Assembly (NCBI GenBank): GCA_016213945.1
Contig: JACQZF010000006.1
Coordinates: forward strand, 62,001 to 126,000
Reading direction: 5' to 3'
DNA from: Nitrospirota bacterium
GTDB lineage: Bacteria; Nitrospirota; Thermodesulfovibrionia; UBA6902
DNA length: 64,000 nucleotides
The notes beneath the pieces are model-generated. The model worked only from the letters and a program-made list of their open reading frames with translations. It ran no database searches and was not told where the DNA came from. How positions within the stretch are numbered: the stretch's first letter is position 1; the number at the start of each line of letters is the position of its first letter. This document shows, piece after piece, positions 9,727-18,551 of this stretch. A program made the translations under genes and the position numbers.

Positions 9727-12700
9727 TCATTGCGCATACACACTCTTCCCTGCACCATAATACGAATCATATACATGCTGATAGACTGTATTGCATTTCT
9801 GTTGATAGAGGTCAGGTGGATAGCTGTTCGGTAACATTTCATCAAGAATTTTTTCAATTGTAATAAAGACATCTGCTCTTGTCTGTTGTTTCCTTCTCCA
9901 GTCCAATACCAGCTTTTCTTTTGTCAGCTTTATTAGCAAGTTTTTTGATGCAAGTTTTACCTGTTGTGTTTCAGCTTTGGTCATATCAGGTTTCTTCAAC
10001 AGATCAAATACAGCAAGTTCTTCTTCCGTTAAATTTTCAGATACTCCCCTCTTCTCTTCCTCATTCAGATCTTTCACAAATGCCATCAATCTTTCAAAAA
10101 ACATCTCTACATTGATCGAGCCTGAGTTGTATTCATCAATGAGCTGCTGAAATTTCTGGAGGTAATCAATCCGTGCCCTGTTTAGTCTGACCATTCTGTT
10201 GAGCCTTGCACTGATTGCAGCTTTCAGTCCCGCTGCCTGCGTGTTTTTTCTGCCTTTTTCAAACTGCTTTCTTAATGCTTCGAAGTCAATCCGGGATAAA
10301 TCAACTCTGTTTGCCCCAATAGACTCTCTGATAAGAAATCCCTCTGCTTCAATGGATTCGTCAAGTACATTTTTTACTTTACCCATGACCGCTGAGATAT
10401 CAACTTCATCGCCTGTTTCGGAGCGGATCTTGCCGGCAATGACATTGAGTACAGTACATTTATCATAAAACTTGCCTGCTTCAGGGTCAGGCAGGATGGC
10501 CTTGAATAATTTCATGACACTGGACGCAAGCAGAAGAAATCTGTTCTTCGTATCATCGTTCACCATAAAGGCATCAGCCGCATCGGCAATAAGCCTGATC
10601 TTTTCAAATTTATCATTTGCCGCAATGATCTTTTGGATATATACTCCACGCTTTATACAGAAATCTTCTGTCTCGTTAATTGTCTGATCAAGTTCCCGGA
10701 CAAGTTCACTCTTGGGCTTTACGGGAGTATCACCTTCTCCGATGCCGCCGCCGGAACCAGTGCCGTAAATAGCCAGCGCCTTCTGGAGATTCCTGAATAT
10801 CCCAACATAGTCAACGATCAGACCATTCTTCTTATCTACGAATACCCTGTTTGCCCGTGCGATGGTCTGCATGAGGGTGTGATTCTTCATCGGCTTATCG
10901 AGGTATATCGTCGAAAGGCCCGGCACATCAAACCCGGTCATCCACATGGCACAGACAAAGACTATTCTGAAGGGATCATACGGGTCTTTAAATTTCTCCG
11001 CCATATCCTCTTTTACCATACGTCTGCGGTGTTTCTCGATATCAAGTCCAAGCTTTCTGAATTTCTGTATCTCGTTCTGTTCGCTGCTGACTACCACAGC
11101 CATGTCGGTCTCTTCCATGTATTCTATTCTCTCTGCTATGTCTTTAGTTCTATCCTGAGGCTCATCAGACCGTTTAATTCTTTGCTCCTCCAACTGCTTT
11201 CGCCAATGTTTCTGTACCTTGTCATACATCTTTACCGCTGTCGGTTTATCAATAGATACCACCATTGCCTTGCCCTGATAACCCCGGCTTGTGAAATGAG
11301 TGACAATATCAGCGGCTATCTTTTCCAGCCGGTCATCTCTTGTGATAATGTGATATTCACGGGCAAATTCCCTCTGGAGCTTTTCTTCCTGCTCAGGAGA
11401 AAGCAAGGCTTCTTCAATTATCCGTTCCAGGTCTTCGTTCAGGTCCTCATTCTTAAGCTGCACTTCAGGTATCCTGTTTTCGTAATAGAGCGGAACAGTA
11501 GCGTTGTCATCAGCCGACTGTTTGAAATTGTAGATGCTGATATAATCGCCGAATGTTTTACGAGTAAGTTCCTCACCGGCTATCAATGGAGTGCCTGTAA
11601 ATGCAATAAAGGCGGCATTCGGAAGGGCCGTCCTCATGTTCATTGCAAGCGTGTCGTATTGTGACCGGTGGGCCTCATCAGCGATCACGATTATGTCCGA
11701 CCTGTCTGAGACCTTATAGTTTATATCGCCGAATTTGTGAATAAGGGTAAAGATATTCCTGTGGTCTTCCTTTAATAGTTGTTCAAGGTGTTTTCCGCTT
11801 TCAGCATGTACCTCCTGTTCAGTAACTGCTCCTGCATATGCGAAGTTCTTATATATTTGCTTATCAAGTTCTATCCTATCGGTTACGATGAGGAAGGTAT
11901 AATTCCCCTCGAATTTCCTGAGTACCTTTTGAGAAAAGAAAATCATCGAATAGCTCTTTCCGCTTCCCTGCGTGTGCCAAAACACGCCGAGCCGTCCCTG
12001 ATTCTCTTTTATCCTGCTGAATGACTCAATGGAATTATTTACTCCAAGGAATTGGTGGTTCTTGGCTACGATCTTGATAAGGCTTCCGCCAGTATCACTG
12101 AATAAAATGAAGTTTTCGATCAGGTCGAGCAGTTTTTTCTTCTCACAGGTGCCTTTAATAATTGTTTCAAGAGATACAACGCCTTCCTCGCCTTCACTGT
12201 TTATCTTTTTCCATTCGCTGAAGTGTTCGTAGTCAGAAGTAATGGAACCGATCCTGCTTTCCGAACCGTTTGACAGGATAATAAAGGAGTTATACCGGAA
12301 CATCTGCGGGATCGTGTCTTTGTAATCAGTGAGATTGTCTCTAAAAGCATTCTCAAGTTTCCTGTGAACTGCTTTAAGCTCGATGAAGATAAGAGGCAGC
12401 CCGTTCACAAATCCCACAAGGTCTGCCCTGCGTTTGTACATCTCGCCGGTTATCCAGAATTGAGAGGCAAGGAAGAAGTCGTTCCTGTCCGGATCGTCGA
12501 ACTCGATAACCTTTACCGTCTCGTCTTCCTCTGTTCCGTCTTCGCGTTTGACCTTTACCTTTACTCCGTCACGGATAATCTTGTAGATTTCCCGGTTGGC
12601 ATTGGCAGGATTTAAAACACCCCTGTCGCGGGTCAGTTCTTCAATGGCTTGTTCGATTGCTTCGTTAGGGATATTAGAATTGAGATTGCGAAGGGCTTCT

Positions 12701-12855
12701 CTTAATTTTGGGATGAGAATAACGTCGGTTGAAGTCTCTCTGCCAAGGGTTCCTTTTGTGCCATAAATTTCGTGGAAGCAGTCGAGATGAGAATAGCCGA
12801 GGGATTGAAAAAGGGCAATAGCGGGTTGTTCAATGAGTTCCAGTTCATTAAACAT
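9727..12855 (-). CDS. hsdR: Type I restriction endonuclease, HsdR subunit
   Basis: The 1042-residue protein is full length for HsdR. It has the nuclease motif region RRADLVGFVNGLPLIFIELK (about residues 139-158), Walker A in WHTQGSGKS (about 289-297), the DEAH box in IVIADEAHRSQ (about 386), motif III FTGTPL, and motif VI MQTIARANR, followed by a helical C-terminal domain. It cuts DNA after translocation when bound to HsdM and HsdS. Its N-terminus resembles a truncated duplicate at 13738-13962; toxin-antitoxin genes now separate the two. The proper hsdR start must therefore once have lain next to the DUF4209 gene. Confidence 0.95.
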   Translation of the reverse strand: MFNELELIEQPAIALFQSLGYSHLDCFHEIYGTKGTLGRETSTDVILIPKLREALRNLNSNIPNEAIEQAIEELTRDRGVLNPANANREIYKIIRDGVKVKVKREDGTEEDETVKVIEFDDPDRNDFFLASQFWITGEMYKRRADLVGFVNGLPLIFIELKAVHRKLENAFRDNLTDYKDTIPQMFRYNSFIILSNGSESRIGSITSDYEHFSEWKKINSEGEEGVVSLETIIKGTCEKKKLLDLIENFILFSDTGGSLIKIVAKNHQFLGVNNSIESFSRIKENQGRLGVFWHTQGSGKSYSMIFFSQKVLRKFEGNYTFLIVTDRIELDKQIYKNFAYAGAVTEQEVHAESGKHLEQLLKEDHRNIFTLIHKFGDINYKVSDRSDIIVIADEAHRSQYDTLAMNMRTALPNAAFIAFTGTPLIAGEELTRKTFGDYISIYNFKQSADDNATVPLYYENRIPEVQLKNEDLNEDLERIIEEALLSPEQEEKLQREFAREYHIITRDDRLEKIAADIVTHFTSRGYQGKAMVVSIDKPTAVKMYDKVQKHWRKQLEEQRIKRSDEPQDRTKDIAERIEYMEETDMAVVVSSEQNEIQKFRKLGLDIEKHRRRMVKEDMAEKFKDPYDPFRIVFVCAMWMTGFDVPGLSTIYLDKPMKNHTLMQTIARANRVFVDKKNGLIVDYVGIFRNLQKALAIYGTGSGGGIGEGDTPVKPKSELVRELDQTINETEDFCIKRGVYIQKIIAANDKFEKIRLIADAADAFMVNDDTKNRFLLLASSVMKLFKAILPDPEAGKFYDKCTVLNVIAGKIRSETGDEVDISAVMGKVKNVLDESIEAEGFLIRESIGANRVDLSRIDFEALRKQFEKGRKNTQAAGLKAAISARLNRMVRLNRARIDYLQKFQQLIDEYNSGSINVEMFFERLMAFVKDLNEEEKRGVSENLTEEELAVFDLLKKPDMTKAETQQVKLASKNLLIKLTKEKLVLDWRRKQQTRADVFITIEKILDEMLPNSYPPDLYQQKCNTVYQHVYDSYYGAGKSVYAQ

Positions 12856-12863
12856 TTGAATTA

Positions 12864-13190
12864 TCAGGACCAGTATGATTTTTTCTTGTACGCTTCATCG
12901 TGCGGCCCCATATCCACGAACTTAACGGTTTCATCCTTGCACTTCGGGCAGTCATGGCAGAGAACTATTTTGTCATCACCCTTTGCCCTGCAGACCTTAC
13001 AATACAGATAAATTATGAGAAAATTCTTCTTAACGGGAGTGCTGTAATATCCCCTGAAATTTCCCTTTAACGGTTCGCCGAGGGCGATAGGGTTTTCTAT
13101 TATCATATCCGCTTTCTTTTGTATCGCCTTCTTTATTGAACTGTGCCTTTTAAGGGATTTTACAAAAACATCGCTGAACAGCGCTTCCAT
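12864..13190 (-). CDS. RelE/ParE-superfamily toxin
   Basis: I take the start as the ATG at 13188-13190, which overlaps the antitoxin stop by one base (TAATG), giving 108 residues. A frame extension up to 13217 exists but is less likely. The sequence shows a RelE/YafQ-like order: EALFSDVFVKSLKRHSS, a basic helix, and GNFRGYYSTPVKKNFLIIY. A Cys cluster (YCKVC and CHDCPKC) precedes DMGPHDEAY, suggesting a metal knuckle found in some relatives. It probably cleaves ribosome-associated mRNA; the activity is inferred from the family. The gene lies directly downstream of its antitoxin. Confidence 0.8.
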   Translation of the reverse strand: MEALFSDVFVKSLKRHSSIKKAIQKKADMIIENPIALGEPLKGNFRGYYSTPVKKNFLIIYLYCKVCRAKGDDKIVLCHDCPKCKDETVKFVDMGPHDEAYKKKSYWS

Positions 13191-13441
13191 TAAAAGACCT
13201 CGTCGTACTTGAACCATTTCATCTTGCCATTCTTGATTTTAGAAATTGTATCCAAAAGACTTTTACTGAAATTAGGGTCACTTAGAATTATTTCAGTAGG
13301 TTCATTTACAACAGTTCTCCTGAGGTTTAAAACAAACTGCGTAAAGACTTCGGAGACAGTGGTTCTCTGTTCCTCCGCATACGATTTAATGTACTCTATC
13401 AAGTCTTCATCCAGCGTTATATTTACCTTGCCTTTATGCAT
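13190..13441 (-). CDS. Ribbon-helix-helix antitoxin
   Basis: This 83-residue protein has a short MHKGKVNITLDEDLIEYIKSYA ribbon-helix start, EEQRTTVSEVFTQFV as the second helix, and a C-terminal toxin-binding tail. The frame opens at a GTG at 13450, but the ATG at 13439-13441 has GGAGG about 8 nt upstream and is the likelier start. Two perfect tandem 11-bp repeats upstream form a natural RHH operator. It is translationally coupled to the toxin. Confidence 0.82.
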   Translation of the reverse strand: MHKGKVNITLDEDLIEYIKSYAEEQRTTVSEVFTQFVLNLRRTVVNEPTEIILSDPNFSKSLLDTISKIKNGKMKWFKYDEVF

Positions 13442-13460
13442 TATAAACACCTCCTTTACG

Positions 13461-13511: not shown

Positions 13512-13751
13512 TCAATTACCGGCCTGGTATGCCTTTATCTCTTCGGCGATCTGACCTTCACTGATTGCCTTTACCCTGGGAAGCTTCTGGGTCTTCTTAA
13601 ACAGCTTCCGCAGCTCCTGTGCACTTATTTTCTTCTTCTCATCTTCCGCAATCATCACTATCTCGACCCGCTGGCCTGAACGAAACGGCAGTTTTTTCAA
13701 CACAAGGTTTTCGGGGTCTTTAATCGTTACATATTTTTTATAGGCAAGCAT
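13512..13751 (-). CDS. Small protein, possible orphan antitoxin
   Basis: The ATG at 13749-13751 has GAGGAGG about 7 nt upstream and gives 79 residues, beginning MLAYKKYVTIKDPENLVLKK. The first half looks beta-rich, and the second is a charged helix (ISAQELRKLFKKTQKL), a layout common in antitoxins with an AbrB- or Phd-like N-terminus. I do not recognise the family. The neighbouring toxin gene has its own antitoxin, and no PIN-domain partner is next to it, so it may be an orphan left by the rearrangement that split hsdR. Confidence 0.55.
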   Translation of the reverse strand: MLAYKKYVTIKDPENLVLKKLPFRSGQRVEIVMIAEDEKKKISAQELRKLFKKTQKLPRVKAISEGQIAEEIKAYQAGN

Positions 13752-13962
13752 TGTAATCCTCCTCATTGCCGTGATTTTTAATTATATCATTTACTAATGT
13801 CTCCTGTTTTAATAGGGAGATGTCGGTGGAAATCTCCCTACCGAGTATTCCTTTTTCGCCGTAGATTTCGTGGAAACAGTCGAGGTAAGAGTAGCTGAGA
13901 GATTGGAAGAGGTTGATGGCGGGTTTTTCGATTAGACTGTCTTCTGAATATCTATTAGCCAT
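13738..13962 (-). pseudogene. Truncated duplicate of the hsdR 5' end
   Basis: This 74-codon ORF matches the first roughly 45 residues of HsdR (32 of 41 aligned residues identical, for example FQSL-Y and LDCFHEIYG) and then diverges and stops. It begins one base after the DUF4209 stop, the place where an intact hsdR would be expected. It appears to be the remnant of the original or an alternative hsdR start, displaced when the toxin-antitoxin genes and the present hsdR came in. Confidence 0.8.
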
Positions 13963-15783
13963 TCAATCACCTTCGCTCTTTTTTGCGTCTTCTGGAGCTT
14001 CTACGGTCTGAGATTTTAGATGGGCTACGATGGGAAGGCAACATAATCGTAAAGTTGTCCACCAAAAATAAGGCACTTCAATAGAATAAAAACTACTATA
14101 AGACATCAACCCATGAGCAACCATGTTCCTGAGATTTGAGCCAAATCGTTCAACTAAGAGACCTCGCAAATCAAAGGCCAAGTCTTCCCCAAATATTTCC
14201 TCTATTTCAGAACAATACAGAATGTCATTAAGAGGTCTTTCATCTTGAATCCCTTGTTCATCCAGCCTGGAGACCGTTACCCCCTTCTTTTCAAGAATGT
14301 ATCTTATTGAATTTTCAACTTGTGGAATTAACAAGTGCGCAGCAGTCATATAATCACCCTTAAGTCCTGTATGCAGTCCTTGAGCAAATATTTGCTCACG
14401 CCCTTCAGGAACAAATGGGCTATTCTGCACAATAGGATAAAAATCCCGTATTTGCACATTATGTTCCAAGTTGATGAGCATTCTTACAGGCTCAATTAAA
14501 CCGTGCGTCTTAATGTTATGGTCAAATTTGGCTTGTGAATACATTTCAGCTTTTTTTGCACGTTCTACTTCCTCAGGGTCATTCGACATCATGTAAGGTT
14601 TTCTGCCAATTACCTTACCTTTTTCATTAACCAATGATCCTGATACCAAAAATTGTAAAGGATGTTTTTTAATTAGCTCTTCAACTCGGTTTCTTAGATT
14701 GGCAATATTTGGGGGAGCACCCATAAGGCAAAATTCAAAAAGCGCATCATGAAAATTGCGACCACTTATATGGTTTCGGTGTTTTTCTATTAACTCACTT
14801 ATATCCATTTCATGTGAAACTTGTTTCATCTCAGCAGCAATATTTTTTTGGACATCGATTAATTTACTATGAAGCTCATCGATACGATCTTTCTGACCAC
14901 CAATACGTCTATATGACTCAATAGCTTTTTCCAACCAGGTACTCGCAACTAAACTACTATTTGCTGTTTCCGCTTCTTTAACATAAGTTTCAGCAGTAAT
15001 AATTTTGGCCTTCTTCTCGGCTTCATTATTTCCGGCAAGTGCTTCCCAATGCGCTTTAATTTCCCAATAGGTTCTTGCCCTATGAAAATCACCTTTGTTT
15101 TCAGCTTGTTTTGCAATCTTTTCTGAAAGGCTTGAATATTTACTCGGGTCACCTTGACTGATTTCAAGCAATAATTCCATTAGCCTTGCTGATAAATATA
15201 AGGGATCACCTCCATCATATTTATCAAGAGTAGTTTCAATATGAGACACGACTTTTTTCCAGTGATTGGTGTTTCGACCAAGTTGCACAGATAATCTGAA
15301 AGCACGATTTATTCTTTCAAATCCAGCCACCCATGAGTCAGGATTCTCTAACAGAATCGCTGATTCTAAATAAGAATCAATAGCAACTTCTGCTGCTTTA
15401 TAATCTCTTTTTCTGATCCATATAATATCTGCTATCCTTGCACGCAAGTCAGCATCTTCTACATGTAAGAGCAGATCCTGTAAAACTTTTATATGATCAT
15501 CTCTTATATCATCGATTATTGCACTGCGGCCTGTATGCAATACTACCATTGGACCAAAAGGTTCATTTTTATCATCAGGCTTGAAATGAAACGAACAAAT
15601 CGCTCCCAATAAACTGAAAACTTCTTGAGCCTTCTCATTCTTTGCTTCTTCAAATTCTCTTGCCTTTGCAAAAAACTTTGATGAATATACTTCACATTCT
15701 TTCTCAGCGCAGTCATTGATGACATCTGGCCATGGAAGTGAATCAAAATCTGATTTTGTGAGTTGTATATTTTTTAAAGCCAT
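13963..15783 (-). CDS. DUF4209-like protein within the restriction operon
   Basis: This is a 606-residue, mostly helical protein with no signal or membrane segment. Its C-terminal 150 residues resemble DUF4209 as I recall it. About residue 551 lies RNMVAHG, an RX4H motif like that of HEPN ribonucleases, preceded by RGLLVERFGSNL. The middle looks TPR-like (HRARTYWEIKAHWEALAGNNEAE). It lies 15 bp after hsdS and abuts the hsdR fragment, so it is part of the hsd transcript. An accessory defence role, such as an RNase that acts when restriction fails, is an inference from motif and place. Confidence 0.65.
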   Translation of the reverse strand: MALKNIQLTKSDFDSLPWPDVINDCAEKECEVYSSKFFAKAREFEEAKNEKAQEVFSLLGAICSFHFKPDDKNEPFGPMVVLHTGRSAIIDDIRDDHIKVLQDLLLHVEDADLRARIADIIWIRKRDYKAAEVAIDSYLESAILLENPDSWVAGFERINRAFRLSVQLGRNTNHWKKVVSHIETTLDKYDGGDPLYLSARLMELLLEISQGDPSKYSSLSEKIAKQAENKGDFHRARTYWEIKAHWEALAGNNEAEKKAKIITAETYVKEAETANSSLVASTWLEKAIESYRRIGGQKDRIDELHSKLIDVQKNIAAEMKQVSHEMDISELIEKHRNHISGRNFHDALFEFCLMGAPPNIANLRNRVEELIKKHPLQFLVSGSLVNEKGKVIGRKPYMMSNDPEEVERAKKAEMYSQAKFDHNIKTHGLIEPVRMLINLEHNVQIRDFYPIVQNSPFVPEGREQIFAQGLHTGLKGDYMTAAHLLIPQVENSIRYILEKKGVTVSRLDEQGIQDERPLNDILYCSEIEEIFGEDLAFDLRGLLVERFGSNLRNMVAHGLMSYSSFYSIEVPYFWWTTLRLCCLPIVAHLKSQTVEAPEDAKKSEGD

Positions 15784-15797
15784 ATTATTCCATCAGT

Positions 15798-16949
15798 CTA
15801 AACGCCATTAGCCGATGTCTGCATCTCCATCCCCTCCACATCAATCTCCCCGCTGATTAATTTCGGCAAAAGGAGGTCACGGGTTTTGCGGAGTATAAAG
15901 TTCTTATTAGTTAAGATTTCAAGTTTACTAAAGACAGGCTTGATAATCTCTTCAAATTGCGTGAGAACTTTATTTGAAGGTTCAATCATCTTGATACTAT
16001 GAACGTCTTCTTTAGTAACAGATTTAAATATTGTTCCGCCGCCCATTGTGTCTGTTTCTTGAAATTTGTCTTTCAATTGTTGAAATACAAAAAACTGATT
16101 AGCCGTTCTACTTCTTATAGCACATAACCCACGACCAATAACCATTTTCTTATTAGCGATATTTATCCTTGCAACAGGAGCACGAACACTAAATAGAATA
16201 TCTCCAGCTTCAGCAATACGATTTTGAACGGTGGAATATATTCGAGTCGTGGGAAATCTATCGCCAAAGTCTGTAACACCTTGATGAAAAGGCAAACCAT
16301 TTCCATCTTCATTATAAAATTCAGATTTAGGTGATTGGCCCATTACAATAGTGCATATGTCAACAAGCGTCTTCACCTCCCACCCCTCAGGAATCATCCC
16401 CAATTCCGACTTAACCCTCTTCACCTTCTCATGCCCCGGGAAGCGGAAGTTGACAAACCATTCCCTGTAAATCGCCTGCGCCATTTCCTCCAAAATCTTA
16501 ATCCGCCTGTTATTGTTCTCTATTAGGTCATCATAGGCGGAGAGGATGGAGGCGATTTTGTGCTGAACTGGCATAGGAGGAACCAATATTCTTACTTTTT
16601 TAAAATCTTTAAGAACTACTCTTGGAATAGCTGCTCCGGTAGTAAACGCATTTTTCATGTATTGTCTTGTGGATTCAGCGTCAAGATAATACCTAAGAAA
16701 TGAAGATGAGATTTTCTGGGCATTTGGTCTTAAAATTGCTACTGAAGAAAGAAGCACAACTTCTAAAGATTTTTTAATTTCACAGACAGTATCTAAAGCA
16801 GATGCCCCATCCTTTGAGATAAGAACATCCCCAATTTCAGGCTTGCAATTTTGTTGAATTAATTTCTGATAATCTTCTTCTGAAATATGTCTACATGTGT
16901 CAAAGCTAATTCCAAATCTTGTTAAATCTTTAACAGATGCCATGGGCAT
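15798..16949 (-). CDS. hsdS: Type I restriction specificity subunit HsdS, 5' shortened
   Basis: The 383-residue protein has two target-recognition domains split by conserved helices. The first helix region is about residues 128-165 (PMPVQHKIASILSAYDDLIE, then EEMAQAIYREWF). The second domain starts at PEGWEVKTLVDIC, and the final helix contains LRKTRDLLLPKLISGEI. The first domain begins abruptly with MPMASVKDL, normally preceded by about 40-60 residues. Upstream in the same frame the codons read SSPPSVSIG, typical of this family, but the frame is soon closed and overlaps the hsdM 3' end. A deletion fusing hsdM to the interior of hsdS is likely; activity is uncertain. Confidence 0.85.
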   Translation of the reverse strand: MPMASVKDLTRFGISFDTCRHISEEDYQKLIQQNCKPEIGDVLISKDGASALDTVCEIKKSLEVVLLSSVAILRPNAQKISSSFLRYYLDAESTRQYMKNAFTTGAAIPRVVLKDFKKVRILVPPMPVQHKIASILSAYDDLIENNNRRIKILEEMAQAIYREWFVNFRFPGHEKVKRVKSELGMIPEGWEVKTLVDICTIVMGQSPKSEFYNEDGNGLPFHQGVTDFGDRFPTTRIYSTVQNRIAEAGDILFSVRAPVARINIANKKMVIGRGLCAIRSRTANQFFVFQQLKDKFQETDTMGGGTIFKSVTKEDVHSIKMIEPSNKVLTQFEEIIKPVFSKLEILTNKNFILRKTRDLLLPKLISGEIDVEGMEMQTSANGV

Positions 16950-16951
16950 GC

Positions 16952-18520
16952 CTATTGATACTGACGGGGGGCTGGAGGTAATTTCCCCACATTATCAGCT
17001 ATCCGTTCTTCCAAATCCCGCGCCTCAATATTCAACTGCTCCAGTTCCTCATTCAACTCCTCAAGCCTCTCATAAAAATCAAAATCATCCTCAGGTTTTT
17101 CTGTCACTCCGACATACCGTCCCGGATTCAATGAATATCCATGCTCCCTGATCTTCGCGATTGTTTCAACCTTGCAGAGACCATCTATATCTTTGTATTT
17201 CCCCTTAGGAAAATGTTCCTTCATCAGCTTTTCGCTTCCTGCGTTGGACTCGACATCTTCTCCACGATAAAGCCTGACTATATTAGAGATGAACTCTATC
17301 TGCTCAGGCAGGAAGTCCCTGTGAGCGCGGTCGATCTGGTTATAGATATGGCGGGCATCGATGAATAGCACCTTGTCCTTGCGGTCTGTCTTTCTCTTCC
17401 CCTTATCAAGAAACCAGAGTGTGCATGGCAGGGTAACCGTGTAGAAGAAGTTCGAGCCGATGGAGATCATTACATCCACGGCATTGTCTTCTATCATCTT
17501 CTGCCTGATATCAAGCTCTGACTGCCGGGCATCACTTGCGGAATTTGCCATAACGAAACCGGACCTGCCTTTTTCATTCAATGCACTCAGGAAATATTGT
17601 ATCCAGAGATAATTGGCATTGTCCGGCCTGGGGATTTGATAGACGATGCGATTGTCTTTTGCGATCTTTCCCTTATCAACGCCGTTTACATTGAACGGAG
17701 GATTAGCCATGACAAAATCAAACTTGCCGACTGATTTATGGATATCTTCATAATAGGCATTCCCCTGCTTTATATCTCCTGAGAGGCCATGCACAGCAAG
17801 GTTCATCTTGCAGAGACGGATAGTTTCGTCAGTCTTCTCCTGTCCGTATACCATGATCTCACTGCTCGGCCTTTTCTTGTGCCGTTCAATAAACTTGGCG
17901 CTCTGGACAAACATACCGCCTGAACCACAGGCAGGGTCATATATCCTTCCATGGAAGGGCTCAATAACATCAACGATGAGCTTAACAATAGAGGTAGGAG
18001 TAAAGAACTCTCCGCCCTTCTTCCCTTCAGTTGCTGCAAACTTGCCGAGGAAGTATTCATAGATCTTCCCGAAGACATCGCCTTCAATATCCATCTGGAT
18101 GCTTGAAAAGACTTTTAATAGAGCGACAAGGACATTATTTTCAAACCGCGTATATGTCCTCGGAAGAACGCCCTTCAGTTCTTCATTCTCATCTTCAATC
18201 GCCTTCATGGCATCGTTGACTGCCTTGCCAATGTCCTTGCCTTCAGGAAGGTTAAGCAGATATGAATATCTGGCCTCTTCAGGCAGAAACATCACGCCCC
18301 TTGCCTGATAATCAGCCTTGCCAATTTTTCTTCTACTGGCAGTGGGTTGTTTCGTCGCTATTTCCTTTTCAGCAACGGTAAACTTGTGATCGGCATAGCG
18401 CAGGAAGATAAGACCTAATACGGGAACGGAATACTGTTGAGCAGTCAGCTCAGAATTAGCCCGTAACTGGTCCGCCGCATCCCAGAGACGTTTTTCAATG
18501 TCGTTGTTGTGATTAGCCAT
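16952..18520 (-). CDS. hsdM: Type I restriction DNA methyltransferase HsdM
   Basis: The chosen ATG (complement 18518-18520) gives [20 protein letters not shown], 522 residues, with GAGGGA about 11 nt upstream; an in-frame TTG lies 18 bp further up. There is an N-terminal helical HsdM domain, an AdoMet-binding motif ([11 protein letters not shown]) and the catalytic NPPFN. The C-terminal coiled region ([20 protein letters not shown]) contacts HsdS. The last 8-10 residues (LPPAPRQYQ) are unusual and are read from DNA that looks like hsdS in another frame, supporting a deletion at the hsdM-hsdS border. It makes N6-methyladenine with HsdS. Confidence 0.93.
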
Positions 18521-18551
18521 TTCGAAAAATTCCCTCAAATAAAAGAAAGAT

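Follow-up and report, generated by a model that had tools for sequence, protein, structure and literature searches.

Parts of the locus reported here resemble several described systems. DUF4209 was presented by Anantharaman et al. in 2013 as a HEPN family with an active motif, fused to TPR repeats and found in "R-M related operons", and the available text of that survey gives HEPN domains an R-x4-6-H motif together with an E-x3-[KR] motif (PMC3710099). The protein studied here is like this C6orf70/DUF4209 family in its Pfam DUF4209 match, its R-x4-H and E-x3-R motifs and its TPR fusion, but a transmembrane segment sets the eukaryotic members apart, and DUF7380, the N-terminal domain of our protein, is not mentioned in the available excerpts (PMC3710099). 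In its setting the gene resembles prrC of EcoprrI, which belongs to the HEPN family and lies within the hsd operon of a type I system. PrrC, however, starts with an ABC ATPase and is subject to gating by the R-M complex, whereas the present protein carries DUF7380 and TPR-like repeats and shows no sign of gating. The insertion site also has a precedent: the same position between hsdS and hsdR is taken by DarTG2 in enteropathogenic Escherichia coli and has been published as a possible defence-gene hotspot, although the cargo there, as far as the accessible text goes, is a DNA ADP-ribosylating toxin-antitoxin system under the repressor RptR (PMC12255303).

At full length, the protein is like the PADLOC candidate system PDC-S39, and no difference from it was found. 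Pseudomonas aeruginosa PAO1 is recorded, in excerpts of the sources, as having PDC-S39 and a type I system (PMC11878078), with hsdM, hsdS and hsdR numbered PA2735, PA2734 and PA2732 (PMC5358918), so that by number PA2733 lies between hsdS and hsdR. Our guess is that PA2733 is the PDC-S39 gene of PAO1. Defences embedded in immune systems are reportedly the subject of a 2024 preprint, to which PMC12255303 refers. Our literature searches found no tested function for PDC-S39 and no paper joining ERMARD with HEPN; among open-access papers they found no test of DUF4209 activity, and searches on DUF7380 or the hsdS-hsdR gap gave no count of DUF7380. Both the kind of protein, a DUF4209 HEPN protein, and the kind of insertion site are already known, and the locus is a good example of them rather than a surprise.

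The DUF4209 gene and its hsd operon

The window analyzed is a 64,000-nucleotide stretch of a Nitrospirota contig; all window features below lie on its (-) strand. The DUF4209 gene occupies 13963..15783 and is, as the first-pass annotation had it, a real open reading frame of 606 codons, here with an ATG start. Its frame is intact, and every residue that is invariant among its relatives is kept. PADLOC assigned it to PDC-S39 through two profiles (PDLC05011 and PDLC05012; E 7e-239 and 5e-163), the match being near full-length (residues 1-591 against positions 1-588 of 595). The encoded protein begins with a DUF7380 domain (residues 5-172; 15268..15771; Pfam E 5.4e-56), continues into a TPR-like superhelix (residues ~147-320; 14824..15345) and ends in a predicted HEPN fold (residues ~456-591; 14011..14418), within which Pfam DUF4209 (PF13910) matches residues 489-579 at E 3e-15, with 56.5 bits against a curated cut-off of 22.3. 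The gene is A+T-rich, with a G+C content of 0.375, as is hsdS with 0.385, against 0.499 for gyrB and 0.448 for the window.

In reading direction, the order of genes is gyrB, hsdM, hsdS, the DUF4209 gene, a 74-aa ORF, an 84-aa ORF, a ribbon-helix-helix (RHH)/RelE-like pair and hsdR. Both HsdM (16952..18538; N6_Mtase E 7.5e-86, HsdM_N) and HsdR (9727..12855; TIGR00348 E 2.5e-154) are full length. The DUF4209 gene had been placed between hsdS and hsdR; it does start 14 bp after hsdS (gene start 15783, hsdS end 15798), but hsdR lies further on, beyond four ORFs. These are the 74-aa ORF (13738..13962), a remnant of the 5' end of hsdR by DNA similarity; the 84-aa ORF (13512..13766), which has no family match and is also present in G004 (88%), the closest genome of the same genus; an RHH-like (DUF6364) small protein identified by domain search, a probable antitoxin (13190..13450); and a RelE/ParE-like small protein, a probable toxin with weak matches below cut-off (12864..13217). 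We infer that the DUF4209 gene is co-transcribed with the hsd genes. A HEPN-MNT toxin-antitoxin system was considered and rejected: the neighbors of the gene are HsdS, the hsdR remnant, the unmatched ORF and the RHH/RelE-like pair, with no MNT nucleotidyltransferase among them. Membership of PrrC was rejected as well, Pfam and NCBIfam giving no ATPase domain and the N-terminal part being a helical repeat.

The hsdS gene (15798..16949; Methylase_S) is short at its N-terminus by ~29-40 residues. Its profile match begins at position 33, its first residue corresponds to approximately residue 30 of a plasmid homologue and, by eye, to residue ~40 in G004, and the frame upstream is open for just 14 codons, without a usual start codon. 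The hsdM end and the interior of hsdS were probably brought together by a deletion. The 74-aa ORF is 77.2% identical in DNA to the 5' end of the window's own hsdR and 83.7% identical to the hsdR of G034; between the window and G004 the remnant is 80.3% identical, whereas their hsdR genes are 92% identical. This duplicated hsdR 5' end (13738-13962) may be a recombination scar.

Predicted fold and conserved residues

We assessed the HEPN assignment by conservation and by structure prediction. The motif RNMVAHG, noted earlier near residue 551, is present and starts exactly at R552 (R552-N-M-V-A-H557-G; R-x4-H at 14113..14130). The bare R-x4-H string was rejected as evidence, since it occurs twice in the protein (positions 300 and 552) against 1.1 occurrences expected from composition; what counts is conservation. 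Two alignments were used, A1, with 16 rows (the window protein and its plasmid and phage relatives), and A5, with 17 rows (the window protein, one genome contig and fifteen IMG/VR loci); DUF7380 is matched in all 17 A5 members and DUF4209 in 14 of them (E 0.01). R552 and H557, together with E490 and R494, which are ordered as in the HEPN E-x3-[KR] motif (14302..14316), are invariant in 16/16 rows of A1 and 17/17 rows of A5, most of the aligned sequences being 20-41% identical to the window protein. Among the rows listed, the motif arginine is followed by N or H. The window protein thus has the R-x4-6-H motif, the acidic residue of E-x3-[KR] and, in the model, an all-helical fold.

The full-length model had a mean pLDDT of 87.2 and a pTM of 0.61, which suggests that the relative placing of the two halves is uncertain; a model of residues 396-596 reached a pLDDT of 88.0 and a pTM of 0.84. 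When VIA-align was run on 998 Foldseek-ranked chains, rows 1-25 of the 50 entries in its output were all HEPN, including AF_0298, HEPN-MNT toxins, Csm6, RnlA, LsoA and the HEPN domain of sacsin. We counted among them a few entries, such as 1ylm, 1wwp and 1wty, whose titles do not say HEPN and which we take to be HEPN proteins. The top match was 2hsb, with an rmsd of 3.0 over 110 aligned residues (model 61-189, corresponding to protein 456-584) and a Z of 7.4, which is moderate and in a range that, according to the tool's own warning, helical bundles can often reach. Unrelated folds begin at row 26, a receptor with a Z of 4.5. Foldseek alone was weak for the HEPN part (best HEPN rows 1o3u at E 1.5 and 2q00 at E 2.0) and, when given the whole model, returned repeat proteins and nothing else. 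Against solved structures, phmmer with the whole protein gave chance matches only, and the HEPN part used as a profile gave zero matches. For the N-terminal half, there was a kinesin-light-chain TPR profile match (residues 147-290, E 4e-5), as well as structural matches to TPR proteins across residues 23-319.

The first-pass annotation had named two findings that would speak against its "HEPN-like" label, a fold lacking the HEPN helix pair and a motif that relatives do not conserve. Neither appeared: the predicted model matches HEPN proteins throughout the top 25 rows, and the motif is invariant in both alignments. Sequence motif and model fold agree, and the description of the DUF4209 protein as HEPN ribonuclease-like is supported, the RNase activity being what its likeness to HEPN proteins would predict. 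The HEPN assignment of DUF4209 as a family would thereby gain fold-level support from the model.

Relatives and the exchanged piece

We then looked at where relatives of the gene occur. The DUF4209 gene is the sole match in the window's own genome and was not found in any of the 100 other relatives searched (1/101 carries one), nor in the 9 congeneric genomes examined. In a phylum sample, 5 of 395 genomes carry DUF4209, namely the window's genome, G061, G071, G217 and G265, a count that leaves aside two weak A1-profile matches and one PADLOC-profile match not reaching DUF4209. A core gene of the lineage was rejected on these figures. No HsdM, HsdS or HsdR relative lies within the 19 kb stretches read around the genes of G061, G071, G217 and G265; the G061 copy has an internal stop, and the G217 copy has AbiJ-NTD4, DUF6602 and N6/N4 methylase genes nearby. 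Scanning genome contigs with the single window protein gave no relative and with the A2 profile gave one, while viral sequences scanned with the single window protein and with A3 gave none.

Among plasmids, 30 of 72,556 records matched. We opened 18 of these 30 loci, leaving aside H8-H18 (near-identical values) and H30; L028 had no usable annotation. In 6 of the 17 remaining loci, the stretch opened includes a gene annotated as methyltransferase, restriction endonuclease or HsdS (L009, L010, L011, L021, L023 and L024, L011 and L024 encoding an identical protein), and in 0/17 does the DUF4209 gene lie between hsd genes. Among phages, 2 of 50,697 records matched, one being a P2-like phage and the other ORF612 of prophage P2-EC46. 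These genes are of the same DUF7380-DUF4209 type and in A1 are 21-23% identical to the window protein, but lie between P2 genes A and Q without R-M genes. In IMG/VR, we found 54 loci on 36 distinct contigs, 12 of them P2-like and 24 others; in 11/11 P2-like contigs with both flanks its position is between gpA and gpQ, and the available DNA of the 36 contigs holds no HsdM, HsdS or HsdR. The DUF4209 genes of L013 (4782-6713) and L020 (5881-7713) likewise sit between A and Q, and that of L125 (5001-6839) is in the same P2 accessory locus. At this locus, proximal to gene Q, lies Orf570 of P2-EC30, which inhibits T5 according to the accessible part of the report (PMC3091744). Thus, when the frequency of DUF4209 genes inside hsd operons was checked, as had been proposed, the window's gene was the only one inside such an operon among the relatives opened. 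The R-M association reported in the available text of PMC3710099 is hardly visible in these loci, and we set aside the general idea of DUF4209 as an hsd-operon family.

Comparison with G004 defined the borders of the exchanged piece. G004 has the same locus beside gyrB, with an hsdM 97% and an HsdR 94.6% identical to the window's. It differs in that hsdM and hsdS are separated by a Fic gene and the slot between hsdS and the hsdR remnant holds an unrelated gene for a 1020-aa SMC/AAA-type ATPase. DNA similarity between the window and G004 breaks off 25 bp short of the hsdS stop, at 15823, and restarts at 13951, just past the DUF4209 stop, so the exchanged piece, the cassette at 13952..15822, which has no DNA similarity to the G004 locus, holds the DUF4209 gene alone. 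Other hsd loci related to this one carry, at their M-S and S-R junctions, ORF6N and DUF3800 (G031), DUF3800 (G034), DUF1016/YhcG nuclease and Y1 transposase (G045), RhuM, a UvrD-type helicase, DUF2290 and DUF488 (G077), or DUF488 and PDC-M19B (G003), and in G006 hsdS and hsdR are adjacent; G040 and G086 were left out of this comparison (contig end; hsdR cut up). The identities of the 74-aa hsdR remnant are suggestive, but not proof, of a cargo that came together with the start of the donor's hsdR, via recombination in the conserved hsdS and hsdR ends.

Some further differences between these loci were seen. The RHH/RelE-like pair, directly before hsdR in the window (13511-12838), is absent from the syntenic G004 locus, and at the hsdM-hsdS junction (16940-16990) the last HsdM residues differ from those of sister loci. 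The SMC/AAA-type ATPase of G004 (L067 11028-14090 (-)) shows a weak PADLOC resemblance to Ppl and mad3 and belongs to no defined family. Within these drafts the locus is common to G000 and G004 only, since gyrB and the flanking 871-aa gene stand on separate contigs in each of the eight remaining genomes of the genus.

Possible functions of the protein

We favor, with a probability of roughly 0.68, the reading that the protein is a self-contained abortive-infection-type anti-phage RNase with a repeat-type sensor, captured at the junction of hsdS and hsdR as a cassette of one gene and independent of R-M. The N-terminal DUF7380/TPR-like superhelix would most likely sense an infection cue and keep the protein inactive, and the C-terminal HEPN domain, via its R-x4-H and E-x3-R residues, would most likely cut RNA, bringing translation and growth to a stop. 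The RNase activity, the phage trigger and the abortive outcome are all extrapolated from HEPN proteins. The gene would have been captured at a junction where other genomes hold other candidate defence genes, and would be transcribed with the hsd genes yet act independently of the R-M enzyme. Its context, that is, membership of the candidate family PDC-S39, the P2-prophage positions and the defence-type neighbors, supports the protein as a candidate defence effector. The first-pass annotation had proposed a back-up effector that acts when restriction is overcome; the effector part gains from this context, with the activity itself predicted, but the back-up part is not supported, the relatives opened lying outside hsd operons, the slot being swapped in sister loci and HsdS being short. 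The protein is probably not gated by restriction.

These points bear directly on a PrrC-like guard, in which the HsdMSR complex would silence the HEPN protein and a phage anti-restriction factor would release it as a second line. The HEPN fold of the model, the 14-bp distance from hsdS and an order as in the E. coli prr locus, with a HEPN gene within a type I operon (accessible parts of PMC3874165 and PMC3710099), are what such a guard would look like, but the PrrC-type ABC ATPase is missing, the relatives opened exist without an hsd partner, and G004 keeps hsdM, the hsdS end and hsdR with an unrelated gene in the slot. The short N-terminus of the window's HsdS weakens a guard role further, while leaving some room for it. 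This comparative evidence argues against PrrC-type silencing by the R-M complex, and we regard the guard as unlikely. A combined version, in which single effectors are swapped at the hsdS-hsdR junction by homologous recombination with a piece of the donor's hsdR and in which DUF7380-TPR is an adaptor reading the state of the resident R-M system, as a PrrC-type guard without the ATPase, seems to us improbable.

The missing stretch of HsdS and the hsdR remnant could also be read as decay of the locus, with the captured HEPN gene as cargo that is maybe no longer selected, and the gene is missing from the 9 other genus genomes searched. Such a passenger is hard to square with an intact 606-codon frame that keeps all invariant residues and with full-length hsdM and hsdR, and we give this reading a low chance. 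More doubtful still is a non-catalytic RNA-binding or housekeeping RNA-decay protein with no part in defence, like the eukaryotic C6orf70 (DUF4209), which is predicted in the available text to degrade RNA at the ER (PMC3710099); the patchy occurrence in the phylum sample, the carriage on plasmids and prophages and the full conservation of the catalytic motif all count against it.

The window's genome and G004 form a natural pair, one hsd locus with two unrelated cargo genes and borders known to the base, which makes it possible to ask directly if embedded effectors are R-M-dependent or independent passengers. For DUF4209 itself, the P2-prophage alleles of E. coli are tractable test material. 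Of 5,426 E. coli genomes that are complete, 54 carry the L013 allele and 20 the ORF612 allele.
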